DNA of 23,276 nt, from IMG/VR virus record IMGVR_UViG_3300032298_000813, positions 1-23,276 of that record. One strand, given 5' to 3'. The notes below the pieces were generated by a model. That model was not told where the DNA came from, ran no database searches, and worked only from the letters and a program-made list of their open reading frames with translations. The stretch comes from a virus. Numbering within the stretch: the first letter of the stretch is position 1; every line of letters begins with the position of its first letter. Below are positions 1,574-23,276 of this stretch, piece by piece. A program made the position numbers and the translations under genes.

Positions 1574-3253
1574 TTAACCAAGTGCAATCGCATAAACAAT
1601 TGCGCTGGTATCTGCGTAACTTTGCGTGGCAACTGGTAAACCACCGATGCTTAGACCGGAGGCAAAAATACCGGACACACCACTGATTACAGCACCGCTT
1701 AAAGTTTGAAAAACACCAGAGGTTCCTTGGATCGTCGTTCCGGTGATTGTGGTACCGCTTAAGGTGCCACTGACAATAACGCCAGAAGCAAACGATCCTG
1801 AACCAAGGACAGATAGATTGCCGCTAACCGTTAAGTTCCCTTGAACAGTATGGCCACTCGTAATTAAAGTCTGGAACGTACCAGAGGTTCCAAGGATGGT
1901 GTTGCCAGTGATTGTCGCACCGGAAAGATTGGTGAATACGCCTGACGTACCACTGACCAAAGCACCGGAAACACTGGTGGTAAACACACCAGCAATACCA
2001 GTCAAGTTTGTAAATACACCCGCATTACCTGTGACGGTTGTACCAGAAACAACTGTGGTGAAGGTACCGGATGCACCTGTAATTGTGGTGGCCCGTACAA
2101 CGTCTCCTGTAATGGTGGCACCAGAAAGAGTCGTTGTGTAAACACCCGAAACACCGGTTACAGAAGTAAACTGCCCAAAGTTTCCGGTAATGGTGGTACC
2201 TGAAACACGGCTAGTAAAGACACCACTAACACCAGTGATATTTGCAAAGCGTCCCGTATCGCCAGTAATTGTGGCTCCAGATAAGTTTGTATAAACGCCT
2301 GAAACACCCGTAATATTTGCGTACCTTCCTACATCACCAGTAATTACAGCACCCGATAAAACTTGTGTAAAGACACCAGAAACACCGCTGACATTACCAA
2401 AGTTTCCAAAAACACCAGTAACAATTGCTCCCGAAACACTGGTTGTAAAAGTCCCGGAGACACCAGTGATATTGGCAAAGCGTCCCGTATCACCTGTGAT
2501 GACAGCACCACTTAAATTTGTTGTAAAAGTTCCAGAAACACCCGTGATACTGGCTGCACGAACGGTGTCGCCAGTAATAGTGGCACCCGAAAGTGTTCCG
2601 CTGACTCGTACAGTGGTGGCAAACTGGGCAAGTCCTGAAACAATCAGTCCACTTTCAACGGTTAGATTGCCGCTCACAACTAGAGCGGGCGTTGCCAGGG
2701 TACCAAAAACACCGCTGGTTGCTGAGACGGTATTACCCGTAATGGTCTGACCACTCAGGTTGACAAAGACGCCGGAAGTACCAGAGATTGTATTGCCTGT
2801 TATTAAGGCACCACTTAACTGGGTTGAAAAATTACCACTGATTGCATTGATAGTAGTGCCAGTAACAGTCGTAGCCGTGACGGTAACACCGTTAACGTTG
2901 GTACCCTGGATGTTTGTACCAGTAACTGTCGTACCGCTAAGCGTGCCACTAACGGTTGCATTTGTTTGTACAACAAGGCTACTGACGGTAACCAAGTTGG
3001 TAACACTTAATCCTGACGTCGTAGTGGTACCAGAAACTGTCAGGTCATTTTGAATTACTACACTGCCACTAATCGTGCCACCAGTGCGCGGCAAATAGTA
3101 AACGTTTAAATACGCCTTGGTTCCAGATATGGTTAGCTTTTTGTTCTTAATTGCAGGGTCAACTTCCGCAACCTGCACAACCGTCAGCAGATCGGCTTCT
3201 GCCAACGCAAGCCCGGCAATTTCTTGTAATTCGCTAATCCTGCGATTTGCCAC
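1574..3253 (-). CDS. Repeat-rich phage tail fibre protein
   Basis: The product is 559 aa from a GTG start. The N-terminal 50 residues (ISELQEIAGLALAEADLLTV, then a Lys-rich stretch and LTISGTKAYL) match the virion-anchoring N-termini seen in many phage fibres. Residues about 218-427 form eight near-tandem units of 25-26 aa with the pattern S-G-x-F/Y-T-x3-S-G-x2-I/V-T-G-x4-F/A-x2-I-T-G-V. Shorter SG/TG units flank them. This periodicity suits a trimeric beta-helical or beta-prism shaft. The C-terminus ends with LPVATQSYADTSAIVYAIAL. Apart from Tyr and Phe the protein is poor in aromatics, and it has no Cys. The likely role is the fibre shaft, with host recognition supplied by it or by the next fibre gene. 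The GTG start is chosen because no in-frame ATG lies near it and the anchoring motif begins directly after. Confidence 0.85.
   Translation of the reverse strand: MANRRISELQEIAGLALAEADLLTVVQVAEVDPAIKNKKLTISGTKAYLNVYYLPRTGGTISGSVVIQNDLTVSGTTTTSGLSVTNLVTVSSLVVQTNATVSGTLSGTTVTGTNIQGTNVNGVTVTATTVTGTTINAISGNFSTQLSGALITGNTISGTSGVFVNLSGQTITGNTVSATSGVFGTLATPALVVSGNLTVESGLIVSGLAQFATTVRVSGTLSGATITGDTVRAASITGVSGTFTTNLSGAVITGDTGRFANITGVSGTFTTSVSGAIVTGVFGNFGNVSGVSGVFTQVLSGAVITGDVGRYANITGVSGVYTNLSGATITGDTGRFANITGVSGVFTSRVSGTTITGNFGQFTSVTGVSGVYTTTLSGATITGDVVRATTITGASGTFTTVVSGTTVTGNAGVFTNLTGIAGVFTTSVSGALVSGTSGVFTNLSGATITGNTILGTSGTFQTLITSGHTVQGNLTVSGNLSVLGSGSFASGVIVSGTLSGTTITGTTIQGTSGVFQTLSGAVISGVSGIFASGLSIGGLPVATQSYADTSAIVYAIALG
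1975..2600 (-). repeat. Tandem 75-78 bp coding repeats in tail fibre
   Basis: These are about eight diverged 25-26-codon units inside the 559-aa fibre gene. The protein pattern (SGxFTxxxSGxxITG...ITGV) is better conserved than the DNA, so this is a structural protein repeat. The boundaries are approximate. Confidence 0.75.
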
Positions 3254-11314: not shown

Positions 11315-11677
11315 TCAAACCGCCAGTTGTAACGTATCTACCTGATACACAAAGAGGTCTATAGCCTCTTGGGACGTCCAGGTTTTAATTCTATCCATCT
11401 TAGCCTGATTAAAGAATTCTTGTTTTTTGTACCAAGTTTCCATCGGCTCGCTTGCCTTAGACGTATTACAACGCCGACATGCTGGAAGTAAGTTATTCCG
11501 ATTACTAGAGCCTGATTTAAACCGTGGGATGATGTGGTCTAAGCTCGTTGCTTCGTCACCGCAGTAACCACATTTACAGTTCCAGGAGTCGTAGATAGCT
11601 TGTCGAAATCGTTTCTTTGCAAGTTTAGGAGTCAGTTCAAGGAGCAATGCGAGAGGTTCGTGTTCGCAGCTGAACAT
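11315..11677 (-). CDS. HNH endonuclease
   Basis: This 120-aa protein starts at ATG 11677; a TTG two codons upstream is less likely. It has a classic compact HNH core with a structural zinc site: CGYCG (36-40), SLDHIIPRFKSG (45-56) with the catalytic His48, SNRNNLLPAC (58-67) with the central Asn, and CRRCNTSKAS (67-76). It is free-standing, with short helical arms for DNA contact. It ends one base before the start of the 894-aa gene and lies between that gene and the plus-strand HTH gene. The position between two virion genes suggests a homing endonuclease that spreads into late-gene junctions. A role in packaging as a nicking partner of terminase is an alternative, but no terminase is visible here. 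Confidence 0.85.
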   Translation of the reverse strand: MFSCEHEPLALLLELTPKLAKKRFRQAIYDSWNCKCGYCGDEATSLDHIIPRFKSGSSNRNNLLPACRRCNTSKASEPMETWYKKQEFFNQAKMDRIKTWTSQEAIDLFVYQVDTLQLAV

Positions 11678-11760
11678 GCTCAATTTGCAGTTATCTTATT
11701 TTAATTTGACCTCATACATTTTCAACTTAAATATAAAGATAAAAAAACTGTAAACCCCCC

Positions 11761-12054: not shown

Positions 12055-12084
12055 ACGGTCCTGCCTTGTGTAGGGCCGTTTTTT
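12055..12084 (+). terminator. Intrinsic terminator of the HTH gene
   Basis: The stem ACGGTCCT (12055-12062) pairs with AGGGCCGT (12072-12079) with one G-T wobble and a 9-nt loop, followed by six T's (12079-12084). It lies 20 nt after the TGA of the HTH gene. The T-tract overlaps the TAA stop of the convergent minus-strand virion gene. Confidence 0.85.
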
Positions 12085-13867
12085 ATGGCGTGAATGCGTT
12101 GCCTCTTTTGTCAAACATTGTAAAGTTTTGTACTTCGATGTAAGCGGTCGGTACGTTAAGCAGCTTTTGCAAAATTGGGGAAAGTGACGGGGACTGACAG
12201 TTATAAGGCGGTACGTCCATCGTGGATAGTGCTCGCCTGGTAACGCTGAAAGCCTGTGCTTCTTTCTGTTCGCTTTCGGTGTTGTCAACCAATTTTTGTT
12301 CCCAAGCAACCATGCTTCCCATCTCCATGGGGAAATCAGAAGGTTCTGGGGGAAACACCCCATCTTTGAACTTAAGTGCATAGATGTGTTTGCAGTAACG
12401 CATCTCATCTAGCAGGGGTGTCCAGTTGTCAGTCAAAGCTGTGATCTGATCTTGTTTTGAAGAGTAGTCATTGTATGTAGGCATCCCCTCCGGCGTAGAC
12501 CCTTGCACACTAATTGTATTCTCACTTCTTAGATAGGTTGCACCAAATTCCCTATAGATACCAGGGTTGTCCCTGTTGGAATTGATAAGCGTTACGTTGT
12601 TAATAGACGTTGAAAGAGGCGGCGTAAATCCCTGTGGAGCATACACAGTAGTTGTCTTGTTTACGTCAACGCTTGTCATTGCAGCGTTAGATGCAACCTC
12701 AGTTGCTTCAAAGATCTTGGTAACACCGGGGTTAAGGATGGACCCTGCGCCAGCATTACCCAATACTTCATATCTAAAACTAACCCCAGGGTTGACTGCA
12801 AGTACTTGAAAAATTCCATCAGCCACTCCCCCAGTGGTTCCCTCAACATACACAAAGCTATTCAATAAGGGTGGTACTTTAGTGCTTACCGTGACGGATG
12901 AAGCACTGGCTGTGATTGCATCAAAGAGAATTGGTGTAGAAAGCACTGCTTGTGTAGTGGCCTCAAAACGACCGGGCTTAACAGACGCAATGCTTGTTCG
13001 AGGATAAAACTTTTTTGTTCCAGTGGCAGAGGCAACATCCAGCATGAAGCTGTACTCCCTGTGTGTAAAGTCTTGACAAGAGCATGCAAAACGCGCACCC
13101 GTAATCAAAAACCTACCAACTGTAAAAGGAACCGGTGAAGGAGTGATGTATTGTTTATCAGGACTGATATAAACAGAACCAGATTTCTTAATTGTTAATA
13201 TCCCCGAGAAAGGATCGGTGTTTACCAAAACAGCTTGGACGTATCCGTAGCGTTTCTGCGTATTGGGATCGATGGTGTTTAACGTAATAATGTCACCGTT
13301 TTCTTCAATAATGCGATCCTCAAGTATTTCACTATCTAACGGCTTAAGTCCTGTAGTTTGCCCTGGTACTGCAATATAAAAGGGAGGGGGAAGAGGATTG
13401 GCAGCACTCCAACTACCCGCAAGTTTTACATACCAGTTTTGAGAATCGGATGTGATGTATTGAATAGATAGTGTATCGCTAGATATTGGATCTGTTAATT
13501 TATCAGTTCTTGTAGAACCAGCATATCGCCATATGGACCAATGCATGCCAAGCTCTCGGTTGGTCGTCGGGAAACCAACAAAAACCCCCGATACAACTGG
13601 GTTCGGATTGGTTTCCGAACTAGGCGTACCCTCTGGTACAGGCAACTGATAGCTAAAGCGATAGGAGTAGTCGTTGTCGTAGGTATTTGCTGTTGCCAAC
13701 TCATATCCCCTACGCCATCTGGCCCAAGCCGATTCCCTGTTGATCGTTCCGATTGATCCTGGAACAGAACCTTTGGAAAACTCTGTGGTAATTGGAATTA
13801 TTACGTTTGGCTGAAACTTTTCAGTTTTACCAAACGATCCAAAAGAGCTCCCACCCTTTGGGGACAT
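12083..13867 (-). CDS. Virion protein with split SWIM-like CxC...CxH motif
   Basis: This 594-aa, mainly beta-rich protein is probably a tail or virion surface component, judged by its place in the late operon. Most striking is ARFACSCQDFTHREYSFM (258-275) together with DEMRYCKHIYALKFK (487-501). The residues C262-x-C264 and C492-x-H494 and their flanking sequence match the SWIM zinc-finger signature (CxC-xn-CxH, with a CKHI-x-A half). Here the halves are 227 residues apart instead of the usual one to a few dozen. The insert contains an Ig-like stretch (SVTVSTKVPPLLNSFVYVEG to about residue 388). The N-terminal 240 residues are Pro-, Tyr- and Trp-rich with no recognised domain. The start is 2 nt after the stop of the 265-aa gene. 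Confidence 0.7.
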   Translation of the reverse strand: MSPKGGSSFGSFGKTEKFQPNVIIPITTEFSKGSVPGSIGTINRESAWARWRRGYELATANTYDNDYSYRFSYQLPVPEGTPSSETNPNPVVSGVFVGFPTTNRELGMHWSIWRYAGSTRTDKLTDPISSDTLSIQYITSDSQNWYVKLAGSWSAANPLPPPFYIAVPGQTTGLKPLDSEILEDRIIEENGDIITLNTIDPNTQKRYGYVQAVLVNTDPFSGILTIKKSGSVYISPDKQYITPSPVPFTVGRFLITGARFACSCQDFTHREYSFMLDVASATGTKKFYPRTSIASVKPGRFEATTQAVLSTPILFDAITASASSVTVSTKVPPLLNSFVYVEGTTGGVADGIFQVLAVNPGVSFRYEVLGNAGAGSILNPGVTKIFEATEVASNAAMTSVDVNKTTTVYAPQGFTPPLSTSINNVTLINSNRDNPGIYREFGATYLRSENTISVQGSTPEGMPTYNDYSSKQDQITALTDNWTPLLDEMRYCKHIYALKFKDGVFPPEPSDFPMEMGSMVAWEQKLVDNTESEQKEAQAFSVTRRALSTMDVPPYNCQSPSLSPILQKLLNVPTAYIEVQNFTMFDKRGNAFTP

Positions 13868-13869
13868 CG

Positions 13870-14667
13870 TTAGAAGAAACCGCCTTGGGCAGTTACGTGT
13901 GCTCCAGGGATGTAACCAGAAGCGTTAGGACCATCAGGGAACACACCAACGTAGAGACGGTCGCCACGTTCCAGATAAATACCTTTGTTGCGGAGTGGTG
14001 CAGTTGGGCCTAGGCCACTGGTATTGCCTGCATTGACGCTAGGAACAGAAATCTGAGGCAACACATCTGAGCAATCAATAATCGCAGTGTTGGCTGGTAC
14101 TGTTTTGGCAAACAATACTTGATAGTCACCTGATGCAGGAATAGGAACAGTTGTGCCACGTGTGTGGTAAAACACAAAGGTTGCAGCAGGCATATCACCA
14201 TAGGCAATGCCCTGGTAAAGAAAACCAGAAGAGGTGCCACCCGAGTAATTCAGCGCACTATTAATGCCGGTAAGCGTGGTAGCACCTGTGTAGGTGTAGT
14301 AGCCATAACCACTGAAAGGAGCCCCGCCACCAGTTAGCGCTCCAGTAGTGGATATAAGAACAATCTGTCCGCTAACAAGGGAGATTGGTGTGCCAGACGT
14401 TGCAGTACTAACTGTATAGTCAGGTCCACGGTAAAAATTATTGCGGGTGATTGTAATGGAGTCAACTACACCACCGCTATTATTGTCTTCACTCAATTCT
14501 GCGTCCATGTCTACCAGGATCGAAGGAGCCTGGCCGCCTTGTACAAATAAAGTATTGGTGGCAGCGCTACCAACGGTCTGTGTAGTAACACGGACTGAAT
14601 CAAATAAGGGACGGTCAACCAACAGGGGTTGCTTGTTTGTGCTAGTACTAGATATTTGACTTAACAC
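13870..14667 (-). CDS. Virion structural protein, beta-rich
   Basis: The product is 265 aa from a GTG start; no in-frame ATG is close, and the next Met lies about 50 residues in. It is rich in Gly, Ser, Thr, Ala and Val, with repeated short strands (SITITRNNFYRGPDYTVSTA; IVLISTTGALTGG; YYTYTGATTLTG) typical of phage tail or head-fibre beta-sandwich proteins. The C-terminus ends KGIYLERGDRLYVGVFPDGP then GYIPGAHVTAQGGFF. No catalytic motif is visible. It is coupled to the downstream 594-aa gene (2-nt gap). The plus-strand homing-endonuclease-like gene interrupts the region just upstream of it. Confidence 0.7.
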   Translation of the reverse strand: MLSQISSTSTNKQPLLVDRPLFDSVRVTTQTVGSAATNTLFVQGGQAPSILVDMDAELSEDNNSGGVVDSITITRNNFYRGPDYTVSTATSGTPISLVSGQIVLISTTGALTGGGAPFSGYGYYTYTGATTLTGINSALNYSGGTSSGFLYQGIAYGDMPAATFVFYHTRGTTVPIPASGDYQVLFAKTVPANTAIIDCSDVLPQISVPSVNAGNTSGLGPTAPLRNKGIYLERGDRLYVGVFPDGPNASGYIPGAHVTAQGGFF

Positions 14668-14716: not shown

Positions 14717-15307
14717 ATGGCACAAACAAATTTTCAGTGCACCTGCTGTGGTGTTTTTTATACACGCGTTGGTAACGCAGCAGCTTGGCATAGGAAACGA
14801 CTACGTGACAGGGGACACACCTTTTGCTCAAAAGAATGCGGTTCTTTTAAGCATGGAGGATACAAAAATAAAACAGGCGAGTACGCTTCTTGGAATGCAA
14901 TGAGAGATCGTTGCAACAATTCAAACTCCACATCGTACGCACGATACGGCGGACGTGGTATCACGCACGATCCAGCCTGGGACGATTTTAAAAAGTTTTT
15001 AGAAGATATGGGTCACAAAGAAAATTCAAAACTAGAACTAGAACGCATTGACAACAATAAAGGTTATTACAAAGAAAATTGCCGCTGGGCTACACATAAA
15101 GAACAGACTCGCAACAGAGGAGGAAAACGTGCGACAAGACTTTACACATTTGAAGAAAAAACAATGTGTATTGCCGATTGGGCAAAAGAGATTGGCATCA
15201 GTCCTCAGTCAATGCAAAAACGTCTAAACAACAACTGGCCTTTAGAAAAGGCTTTTTGCAAAGAACGACGCGATGGGAAAGGAAGTAAGCAAGTAAAACC
15301 CAGGTAA
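14717..15307 (+). CDS. HNH-type homing endonuclease-like protein
   Basis: The N-terminal zinc-knuckle-like part of this 196-aa protein contains FQCTCCGVFY (6-15) and TFCSKECGSF (35-44). The core carries the pattern seen in free-standing phage homing-type endonucleases: EYASWNAMRDRCNN (55-68), SYARYGGRGITHDPAW (73-88), LELERIDNNKGYYKENCRWA (106-125) and EQTRNR (129-134). The C-terminal IADWAKEIGISPQSMQKRLN (152-171) is a NUMOD-like helix-turn-helix used for DNA recognition. The gene is richer in A and T than the flanking capsid-side genes and runs against them, which suits acquisition by transfer. It lies between the 265-aa virion gene and the 86-aa gene. The catalytic fold is inferred from motif order and was not shown by search. 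Confidence 0.8.
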   Translation: MAQTNFQCTCCGVFYTRVGNAAAWHRKRLRDRGHTFCSKECGSFKHGGYKNKTGEYASWNAMRDRCNNSNSTSYARYGGRGITHDPAWDDFKKFLEDMGHKENSKLELERIDNNKGYYKENCRWATHKEQTRNRGGKRATRLYTFEEKTMCIADWAKEIGISPQSMQKRLNNNWPLEKAFCKERRDGKGSKQVKPR

Positions 15308-20136: not shown

Positions 20137-21297
20137 TCAGATGTCGCCGTCATCAGAGACGAAGCTGAATGCGGTGGTAACGAAATCTTTGTTAAGAATT
20201 TCAAAACCAGCGTACAGTTGCCAAATCAAGATGATAAAGCGGCTGAAGTCATCGTTGTTGTTGATCAGCACCTGAGCGTTAGGACCGCCAATGCCAACGC
20301 CGATTGCCTGAGGACCAAAGAAGTAACCTTGGGCAATTTCTTGTTGAGCAAAAGTGCTGGCGTTAAAGCTAGCGTTAATGGTGCGGTTGGGGAAGTTGGT
20401 CGATTCGAAGAACTTCACACCTTCAAACTGAACGCCAGTAGGCATCACAGGTTCGCCAGCCAGGAAGTAGGCTTGGCCAGCCTGAGGGCCTTGGTAGAAG
20501 CTGGCGTTGTTAGGCATCATGGGGTTACCCATGTACATGCCTTGGCCAGGGTTACCAGCGTAACGAGCAATCTCACGGAAGTCAGGATCACGACGCAGGT
20601 GCATCATGAATGTGGGATCGCAAATACAGCGATACAGACCATCAGCGTAGGTAGGAACGTTGCGCTTGCGCAGGTCCTTAACAACAGTCAGAAGGTCGGT
20701 ACGCACAGAGAACTGCTGAAGATTAGCGGTGTACTCAGTGCTGGTATAAGAGATAGAACCGTTGGAAGCCTTGGTCTTGTTACCAGGGAAGTAGTAACCA
20801 CCTTGGCTTGTAGAAGCTTGGCCGTTTGCTTCTGCTTTCGACAGTTCGTCAATGAAGACGCGGTCGCGCCAACGACGATAGTCATCAAGCAGGGTCAAAG
20901 AACCGATGCTCTGGTGGAACATGTTCAAGTTGCCGGTGTCGAGCAGCAAGCGCTGAGCGGTCACCAGGGTTTCCCGGGCAATCTTGAAGGTGCTGGGCTG
21001 GGTAGGATCACCCGGGTCCGCAGGACCGGTGTATTCCTTAAGGACCACCAGGACTTTCTCCTTGGTGATGTTACGGCTGTTAGCGCTACCAATGGTTTGG
21101 TCGGCAATACGCTCGCGGCTGTCCTTAGTACCAGGGGTTCCCCAGAACTTGTAGCGATCCAGCTGAACGGTTTGACCAGGCTGACGAGTGAAGTCGTGAA
21201 CGACTACGGGCTCAACGGCCATCTCAGCGATGTAAGCGGGGTGGGGACGATAAAGTTCCGCACCCAGGATTTTTGGAAAATCGTTATCAATAAACAC
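20137..21297 (-). CDS. Major capsid protein (N4 gp56-like, HK97 fold)
   Basis: The product is 386 aa from a GTG supported by a strong Shine-Dalgarno (GGAGGA, 9 nt upstream). It has the layout of N4-gp56-type capsid proteins: an N-terminal segment, an extended loop region (GQTVQLDRYKFWG, with R/D/E around 58-66), a helical spine, and GLYRCICDPTFMMHLRRDPD (220-239), which matches the family's Y-x-x-x-x-x-P-x-x-x-x-D/H-L-R-x-D-P hallmark, followed by FREIARYAG. A C-terminal strand-helix (SRFIILIWQLYAGFEIL) completes the fold. It lies downstream of the scaffold-like gene and upstream of the decoration protein. Strong codon bias opens a 391-codon antisense frame that is not a gene. Confidence 0.85.
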   Translation of the reverse strand: MFIDNDFPKILGAELYRPHPAYIAEMAVEPVVVHDFTRQPGQTVQLDRYKFWGTPGTKDSRERIADQTIGSANSRNITKEKVLVVLKEYTGPADPGDPTQPSTFKIARETLVTAQRLLLDTGNLNMFHQSIGSLTLLDDYRRWRDRVFIDELSKAEANGQASTSQGGYYFPGNKTKASNGSISYTSTEYTANLQQFSVRTDLLTVVKDLRKRNVPTYADGLYRCICDPTFMMHLRRDPDFREIARYAGNPGQGMYMGNPMMPNNASFYQGPQAGQAYFLAGEPVMPTGVQFEGVKFFESTNFPNRTINASFNASTFAQQEIAQGYFFGPQAIGVGIGGPNAQVLINNNDDFSRFIILIWQLYAGFEILNKDFVTTAFSFVSDDGDI

Positions 21298-21417: not shown

Positions 21418-22389
21418 TCACTCCATCACAAACAGTTTGTTTGCAACAGTTTGGGGTTGGGCTTGGTTCAGAAGACGCCATGCGTTCTGAGGATCGCGAT
21501 TCATCTGGTCGTTAAAACCACCCCAGAAATTCTCGGGTGCTTGGGGAGCAGAGGCTGCGGGAGGTGCAGGGAACTGGCCCATCTGAGGCTGAGCCACAGC
21601 TTGGGTCGGATAACCGCGAGTCTCCAGTTGAGCTTCGTTCTCGTACACAGGATAAGGACCTTCGGGACCAAAGAACTTCAGCGTGTAATCGCTGAGGACG
21701 TCGGGGTTGGTCAGAATCTCGTTGTAAGCCAGGTTCTCCTGGTGCTCGTTAACAGCGAAGTTGGCGTAACCAGTGATTGCGTTACTTGCGCGGTTTCCCC
21801 ACTGGACGGCGCTGTCCAGCATCTCTTCCAGATTTAGGGCGTAGTTGTTCAGAACTGCCGGAGCTTCGATCCCGAACGCGTCCATCACTTGGCGGCTTTC
21901 CTGGCTCATTCCCACCAGGTCCGCGACGTCCGCTAAGGAGGGAGTCGAGGAGGTTTGGGAATAATTGGGCGAGGATACCTGGTTGGGAGACCAAGTCAGC
22001 GGATCCGATTGTGGCGTAAACTGGCTGTTGGGTTGTCCGTAATTGGCCGGGGTATACGCTGTCGGTGCCTGCGACTGTTGACCCTGGAATGGGGATTGGA
22101 CTGGAGCGCTCAGCAGATTCACCACCTTGTTGAACGCCGACTCCCAAGGATTCCCCGCCGAGTCCGCCACCGGTTGGGATTGGGGGGCGTACTGAGTAGG
22201 GGCTGATTGGTAGCTGGGGGCTGCCTGAGGTACCGCTTGGGGGTAACTCGTACCCACTTGATAAGCCTGCGGAGCTGCCTGGTAGCTGGCCGGTGCTGCT
22301 TGTGGTGCTGCCACCACGTAGCTGCTCGGAGCGACGGCTGCTGGTGCTTGGCTCGTCTGTGGGATCGATTGGACGATAGCGTCCTGCAT
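21418..22389 (-). CDS. Probable capsid scaffolding protein
   Basis: This 323-aa protein starts at ATG 22389 with a good Shine-Dalgarno (AGGAG, 7 nt upstream). Residues 5-75 are low-complexity Ala/Gln/Pro/Ser/Tyr repeats (APQAAPASYQAAPQAYQ). A helix follows (NPWESAFNKVVNLLSAPV), then a second Gln/Ser/Pro-rich linker. The helical core is SLADVADLVGMSQESRQVMD, FGIEAPAVLNNYALNLEEML and SAVQWGNRASNAITGYANFA. The C-terminus is again Pro/Gln-rich and ends in a charged helix. Disorder with helical cores, and a place between portal and capsid genes, are typical of scaffolds. Its first 608 nt also read open in the portal frame. Confidence 0.7.
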   Translation of the reverse strand: MQDAIVQSIPQTSQAPAAVAPSSYVVAAPQAAPASYQAAPQAYQVGTSYPQAVPQAAPSYQSAPTQYAPQSQPVADSAGNPWESAFNKVVNLLSAPVQSPFQGQQSQAPTAYTPANYGQPNSQFTPQSDPLTWSPNQVSSPNYSQTSSTPSLADVADLVGMSQESRQVMDAFGIEAPAVLNNYALNLEEMLDSAVQWGNRASNAITGYANFAVNEHQENLAYNEILTNPDVLSDYTLKFFGPEGPYPVYENEAQLETRGYPTQAVAQPQMGQFPAPPAASAPQAPENFWGGFNDQMNRDPQNAWRLLNQAQPQTVANKLFVME

Positions 22390-23276
22390 AACTCATCTCC
22401 TTTTGTAGAGCTTCTAAAGTGCGATACAGATATGGAGTTAAATCCAATCTCGGATCCGCAGCCATCGGTAAATCCGGTGATTGCGGGTGAGGGGTCTGCA
22501 TCATGCCCCCCACTAGGCGAGCAAACTGAGAATAAGCATTCTGCAGTTCGCCTACCATCCTGAATGGGAAGCCGGATAGCATCCCTGCCCTTTCTTCATC
22601 CGTCTTAGACGGGAAGAGGTATTTCAGTGCTTCAATGCTATCAACACCTAATTCTTGTAGGTTTCGCACCACAATGGAGTTGTTTAGCGTATCTTGCGTT
22701 GAATCTTCGTAGACAGGACCAAGCCAACGCCACTGCATTGTCACGTCACCATCTGGGATCAATCCAAGAACACCAGGTGGAATCTGCTGCGTTTTGAGGC
22801 AGGCCATCATTAGCTGCTTGATTTGGTTCTCAAACCTCCCCATGGCATCTTCGTAGGCCATGATGTCTTCCTGTGGGGCATTCTCGGGAAGTTCTAGGGG
22901 GCGTTCAAGACCTGCAGCTGCTGCAAGCGTCTCACGGAACATGCGTTCTTCTTGAAAAATAATCAGCTCTAAACAACGGCAAACACCATATGTGTAAATA
23001 GAGTTGGCTTTTTTCTTAGAAGTAGCAGAAACACGACCAAACAATGATTTATATTCGGTTGCTGTTACGCCAGCAGAAATAGATAGTTCGTCTACACCAC
23101 CAAGTGCAGTACGAATCTCTTCCCTGTATTGACGTGCAAAAGAATTTTGATCACCTGAGATAGCGTCCGGGACAATGTAACCAACTCGGTCATTGGGTTC
23201 CAAGTTGGCAATCACCCTTGGTACTCGGATCTGACCGTCGACACCACGGGAAATAGGATCTGCTTTAAACCGTGAC
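21782..23276 (-). CDS. Portal protein, partial (5' end beyond window)
   Basis: The minus frame is open from the right edge to TGA at 21782. The apparent GTG start at 23215 is internal, because the frame continues upstream (RFKADPISRGVDGQIRVPRV). Portal-like features include an Arg/Asp-rich strand segment (LEPNDRVGYIVPDAISGDQN), long helices (KKKANSIYTYGVCRCLELII; GRFENQIKQLMMACLKTQQI), a strand pair with WRWLGP, and the wing/crown-type helices EDSTQDTLNNSIVVRNLQEL. It heads the packaging-capsid order portal, scaffold, capsid. The last roughly 200 residues lie inside the scaffold gene in another frame and look like low-complexity shadow (Gly/Ser/Pro/Arg-rich). The true C-terminus may therefore be uncertain. 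The identity rests on gene order plus fold-like patterns. Confidence 0.75.
   Translation of the reverse strand, partial: SRFKADPISRGVDGQIRVPRVIANLEPNDRVGYIVPDAISGDQNSFARQYREEIRTALGGVDELSISAGVTATEYKSLFGRVSATSKKKANSIYTYGVCRCLELIIFQEERMFRETLAAAAGLERPLELPENAPQEDIMAYEDAMGRFENQIKQLMMACLKTQQIPPGVLGLIPDGDVTMQWRWLGPVYEDSTQDTLNNSIVVRNLQELGVDSIEALKYLFPSKTDEERAGMLSGFPFRMVGELQNAYSQFARLVGGMMQTPHPQSPDLPMAADPRLDLTPYLYRTLEALQKEMSYAGRYRPIDPTDEPSTSSRRSEQLRGGSTTSSTGQLPGSSAGLSSGYELPPSGTSGSPQLPISPYSVRPPIPTGGGLGGESLGVGVQQGGESAERSSPIPIPGSTVAGTDSVYPGQLRTTQQPVYATIGSADLVSQPGILAQLFPNLLDSLLSGRRGPGGNEPGKPPSDGRVRDRSSGSSEQLRPKSGRDAGQRRPVGKPRK

Follow-up and report, generated by a model that had tools for sequence, protein, structure and literature searches.

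A SWIM-type metal clasp carrying a domain-sized loop is the probable explanation for two short, invariant motifs in a 594-residue protein of S-EIV1-like cyanophages, itself probably a component of the virion. The protein is encoded on the minus strand of an S-EIV1-like cyanophage contig, in the window (the whole stretch of DNA that was analysed, 23,276 nucleotides), by an open reading frame at 12083-13867 that begins with ATG; read on the plus strand, the same stretch contains many stops. In the translated frame, C262, C264, C492 and H494 occupy the positions claimed for them in an earlier note on this sequence, and their claimed flanks, ACSCQDF and YCKHIYALKF, are likewise present. Between C264 and C492 lie 227 residues, in a protein that contains only four cysteines and three histidines in total. 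The features on which the argument draws are as follows.

12083..13867, minus strand: 594-aa protein with discontinuous SWIM-like motif; S-EIV1 homologue AHV82237.1
13052..13117, minus strand: first half-motif region, residues 251-272; 73% mean pairwise identity; predicted secondary structure
13076..13084, minus strand: candidate ligand pair C262-x-C264; invariant in 215/215
12395..13075, minus strand: spacer between the candidate ligand pairs, residues 265-491, 227 aa; 122-173 aa in relatives without the module
12701..12946, minus strand: extra beta-rich module, 82 residues, 308-389; window's subclade only, 7/215
12329..12427, minus strand: second half-motif region, residues 481-513; 73% mean pairwise identity; helix in both models; intact protein matches Pfam SWIM weakly here
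12386..12394, minus strand: candidate ligand pair C492-x-H494; invariant in 215/215

Relatives and genomic setting

The only relative among 50,697 phage records is AHV82237.1 of Synechococcus phage S-EIV1 (KJ410740.1), an orthologue of ~49-51% identity that has the same motif and gene order, is annotated as hypothetical, and is without the 82-residue module. Five scans of IMG/VR confirmed 238, 466, 534, 454 and 405 relatives; the last two were queried with the N-terminal part only (~250 residues), and because the query held nothing else, their matches are free of selection for the motif. Just two relatives were returned by a scan of cellular genomes, both on short MAG contigs, and these are probably phage sequence binned with bacteria. 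Lactobacillus phage LP65 orf45, a weak tblastn match, has a translation lacking CxC...CxH, and so was dismissed.

The window and S-EIV1 share a gene order of portal-like, scaffold-like and major head protein genes, several unassigned genes and the 594-aa gene, after which come an HNH nuclease, an 894-aa protein and lysozyme, and then, in the window, tail-fibre-like genes. The major head protein matches phrog_1357 (2.2e-15), and its identity to a reading frame of S-EIV1 is 87%. Of the fetched viral loci, 175/181 carry the HNH gene and 125/145 the 894-aa gene. The gene immediately upstream, whose product matched no PHROG or Pfam family, and the HNH gene are placed as follows.

13870..14667, minus strand: upstream neighbour, 265 aa; upstream in 199/199 loci with room
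11315-11683, minus strand: HNH gene; a further HNH frame lies at 14717-15307 (plus strand)

Orthology and synteny with AHV82237.1 identify the 594-aa gene as a core late gene of S-EIV1-like phages and, because gene order and neighbours are conserved, its product is probably a virion (head-tail or tail) component.

Several features of these late genes merit separate record. The S-EIV1 record KJ410740.1 is without an annotated full-length major head gene; its stretch at 60859-62007 (L348 6860-8008), which is 87% identical to the window head protein (20137-21297), is annotated as a minus-strand hypothetical protein, AHV82227, together with a 156-aa fragment, AHV82228. In the window, a scaffold-like 323-aa reading frame (21418-22389, minus strand) overlaps the portal-like C-terminus (phrog_20475; 21782-23215, minus strand) by 608 nt in a different frame. 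S-EIV1 conserves both frames (78% and 80% amino acid identity overall); there they overlap by ~550 nt, and the record carries no annotation for the scaffold-like N-terminus. The overlap is a long conserved dual-coding region. A probable fibre of 559 aa (1574-3253, minus strand) consists mostly of repeats of the SGVFTTxLSGATITGDxxRxxxITGVSG type; an unbroken alignment to the searched S-EIV1 stretch covers its N-terminal 306 aa and no more. Lastly, the HNH endonuclease frame at 14717-15307 lies on the plus strand amid minus-strand late genes, and is probably a mobile homing-type gene.

Conservation of the half-motifs and variation between them

The earlier note had staked its reading in part on joint conservation of the four putative ligands, and this expectation was borne out: C262, C264, C492 and H494 are invariant in all 215 members of a non-redundant set (27 clusters when grouped at 70% identity; 38% in the most distant pair), and all four are present in 63/63 sequences that were retrieved by N-terminal patterns only. 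Across the 215 sequences Q265 and D266 are likewise invariant, as is K493 in every sequence where that position can be read. C557, the one further cysteine, has been substituted or is missing in 21/215, and is thus ruled out as a fifth ligand. Shuffling the window protein 200,000 times produced the order C.C...C.H in 32 cases, and of 1,070 other distinct reading frames from the fetched loci (at least 150 aa) a single one has it, as a compact unrelated string; the motif stands far beyond chance because its four residues are conserved throughout the homologues.

Since 61 of the 496 well-covered columns are invariant, a metal site cannot be concluded from invariance alone. The pattern of conservation says more: the two half-motifs are peaks flanking a variable spacer. 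Among the 27 cluster representatives, mean pairwise identity is 0.73 in residues 251-272 and 481-513, and the remaining segments have 0.53, 0.42, 0.36, 0.42 and 0.51, making the half-motifs the best-conserved segments of the protein. That both halves are unchanged in all relatives examined suggests a metal ion fastening the ends of the spacer together. In a mean-field covariation analysis, with few effective sequences (68), the best pair linking the two halves ranks 160 of 119,025.

Most of the 215 sequences have 142-158 residues between the pairs, one clade has 171-173 and a single sequence 122; spacers of 226-227 occur solely in the window's subclade (7/215). It is this subclade that carries the beta-rich module, which is inserted after KPGRFEATTQA and matched no Pfam or PHROGs family and no phage record. 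The earlier note's description of all 227 residues as an Ig-like insertion is therefore not upheld, and only the 82-residue module is an insertion relative to kin; as the spacers of relatives are shorter, the remainder is an old, family-wide loop of ~145 residues to which the subclade has added its module. The sequence with the shortest spacer, L325 (122 residues), keeps all four ligands, and as a naturally minimal version of the protein would suit structural studies.

Likeness to SWIM fingers

In SWIM fingers the spacer between the two pairs is usually ~6-25 residues long. The SWIM zinc finger corresponds to Pfam PF04434 (Makarova, Aravind and Koonin 2002, as cited in PMC4381286). The window protein has in common with it the CxC...CxH order and the flanking residues (CxCxDF and CKHIxA types), and may share its layout through a predicted hairpin followed by a helix; it differs in having 122-227 residues between the pairs across the family, where SWIM has a short loop, and in belonging to a phage late structural module rather than to transposases, helicase-associated or ubiquitin-related proteins. 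No account of a SWIM domain in a structural protein of a phage turned up in the collection of papers that was searched.

Against a library of 24,736 Pfam models, in which SWIM has a curated cut-off of 19.6 bits, the intact window protein scores 11.0 bits, in its second half only, and nothing in Pfam or PHROGs matched the intact protein above cut-off. Removal of the spacer, by joining 33 residues around CxC to 28 around CxH (a splice point chosen at the motif, and thus with the motif in mind), raised the window protein above the cut-off, to 21.8 bits, and SWIM was then the sole Pfam match in 14/14 representatives (best E 4.3e-5). In a more divergent spliced set 13/14 match SWIM, the first member reaching only 12.0 bits; weak matches of spliced sequences to phrog_17897 and phrog_1895 were also recorded. 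Shuffles with the four ligands held in place gave a SWIM match in 0/14, and chimeras with one true half (eight with the second half only, eight with the first half only) in 0/16, so both halves must hold specific SWIM-like residues beyond the ligands themselves. By formal tests, the protein is nevertheless not a standard member of the family, because its spacer length and intact score fall outside the family's bounds; it would act as one in a discontinuous form.

Structure predictions were made with AlphaFold2 for the window protein (44 aligned sequences, the S-EIV1 row left out) and for L107, a relative without the module (82 sequences), giving mean pLDDT values of 60.5 and 63.7, respectively. 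The N-terminal domain (~65-260) is modelled with high confidence, and the stretches right after CxC and before CxH with low confidence. Residues 251-272 are predicted to form a beta hairpin (253-256, 259-262) ending in CxC and followed by QDFTxRxY; residues 481-513 read LDEMRYCKHIYALKF...FPPEPSDFP, and CxH opens a predicted helix at 493-502. In both models the two strands end at CxC, and a helix begins directly after C492. A hairpin bearing CxC, and then a helix that begins with CxH, would fit the SWIM layout, at low model confidence around the junctions. Searches of the PDB by sequence gave no match to the full family, and chance matches only for the spliced motif, while Foldseek searches against BFVD and PDB returned nothing usable (TM-scores of ~0.1, normalised to the query). 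Co-conserved ligands, the Pfam match of the spliced halves with its clean controls, and the fitting predicted layout together uphold the resemblance to SWIM that the earlier note proposed. The virion location and receptor-facing module suggested in the same note go further than these data warrant.

A proposed split metal site and its alternatives

In the mechanism that we infer, which comprises metal binding, spatial closure, a clasp role and presence in the virion, the hairpin that closes the N-terminal beta domain would supply CxC, and the conserved helix start would supply CxH. The two pairs would meet to share a single metal ion, in all likelihood Zn(II), the inter-pair loop of a SWIM-like finger having grown to the size of a domain. 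The metal site would then serve as a clasp, tying the base of a 142-227-residue excursion to the confidently modelled N-terminal beta domain, such that the excursion may vary freely or accept an extra module (308-389 here) while the fold is kept.

Two sets of known proteins bear comparison. Metal-bearing phage tail proteins include T4 gp12 (zinc), the lambda tail-tip protein gpL (reported to have an iron-sulfur cluster) and spike tips (iron); there too metal rigidifies virion proteins, with ligand sets and folds that differ from those considered here, and we know of none among them that is of SWIM type. The zinc site of GluRS has been described as a SWIM domain, CxCx24CxH, with example spacers of 24 and 14, and in the E. 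coli enzyme a tyrosine four residues before the third cysteine may replace histidine as a ligand (PMC4381286). Both GluRS and the window protein have a zinc-type site (predicted, in the latter) within a larger protein, and the same motif order, whereas the spacer in GluRS is only ~14-24 residues. The Tyr-x3-Cys ligands possible in GluRS are absent here: the residue four before C492 is E488 (E or Q in the family), which makes that variant impossible and H494 the likely fourth ligand.

It is conceivable that the two pairs never meet, being conserved as disulfides or separately, for example at subunit interfaces, with a likeness to SWIM that is short and convergent. A long intervening region and 61 invariant columns out of 496 leave room for such an arrangement, as do the uncertainty of the models at the junctions and a covariation analysis that lends contact no support at 68 effective sequences. 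We consider it unlikely, however, given that H494, for which disulfides have no use, is conserved just as fully as the cysteines, that C557 is not conserved, and that the Pfam SWIM match requires both halves. A different cofactor bound by the same three cysteines and one histidine, such as an iron-sulfur cluster or iron, would account for the invariance of the ligands, and iron can be ligated by this residue set; against this, the non-ligand residues of both halves match the SWIM profile specifically, and a hairpin bearing CxC with CxH at a helix start is the layout of a zinc finger, such that we regard another cofactor as improbable. Cys-His catalysis, in a thiol enzyme (a virion protease or hydrolase) with C492 and H494 in its active site, seems to us barely credible: an invariant cysteine and histidine in a phage late protein could be read in this way, but an adjacent CxH would be an unusual geometry for a dyad, no enzyme family matched, and the motif fits a structural zinc finger.

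The SWIM-type clasp with a domain-sized loop is thus the reading that we prefer. A broader proposal, which we advance only tentatively and hold to be possible rather than likely, is that a discontinuous SWIM finger is a family-wide feature of this virion protein, and that its loop, closed by one zinc ion, acts as a fixed docking base for outward-facing modules that are swapped or added, the 82-residue module of the window's subclade being an example.

S-EIV1-like phages are widespread, and most of their structural genes are without a family assignment; one marine survey (PMC5332604) attributed ~3% of its cyanophage content to the genus-level group to which S-EIV1 belongs. The invariant candidate metal site offers a first, testable way into the mechanism of a core protein of these phages. 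It would add to the short-looped SWIM fingers a split form whose loop exceeds 120 residues and, because profile searches with intact sequences miss the split form, other split fingers in phage proteins may have been overlooked.
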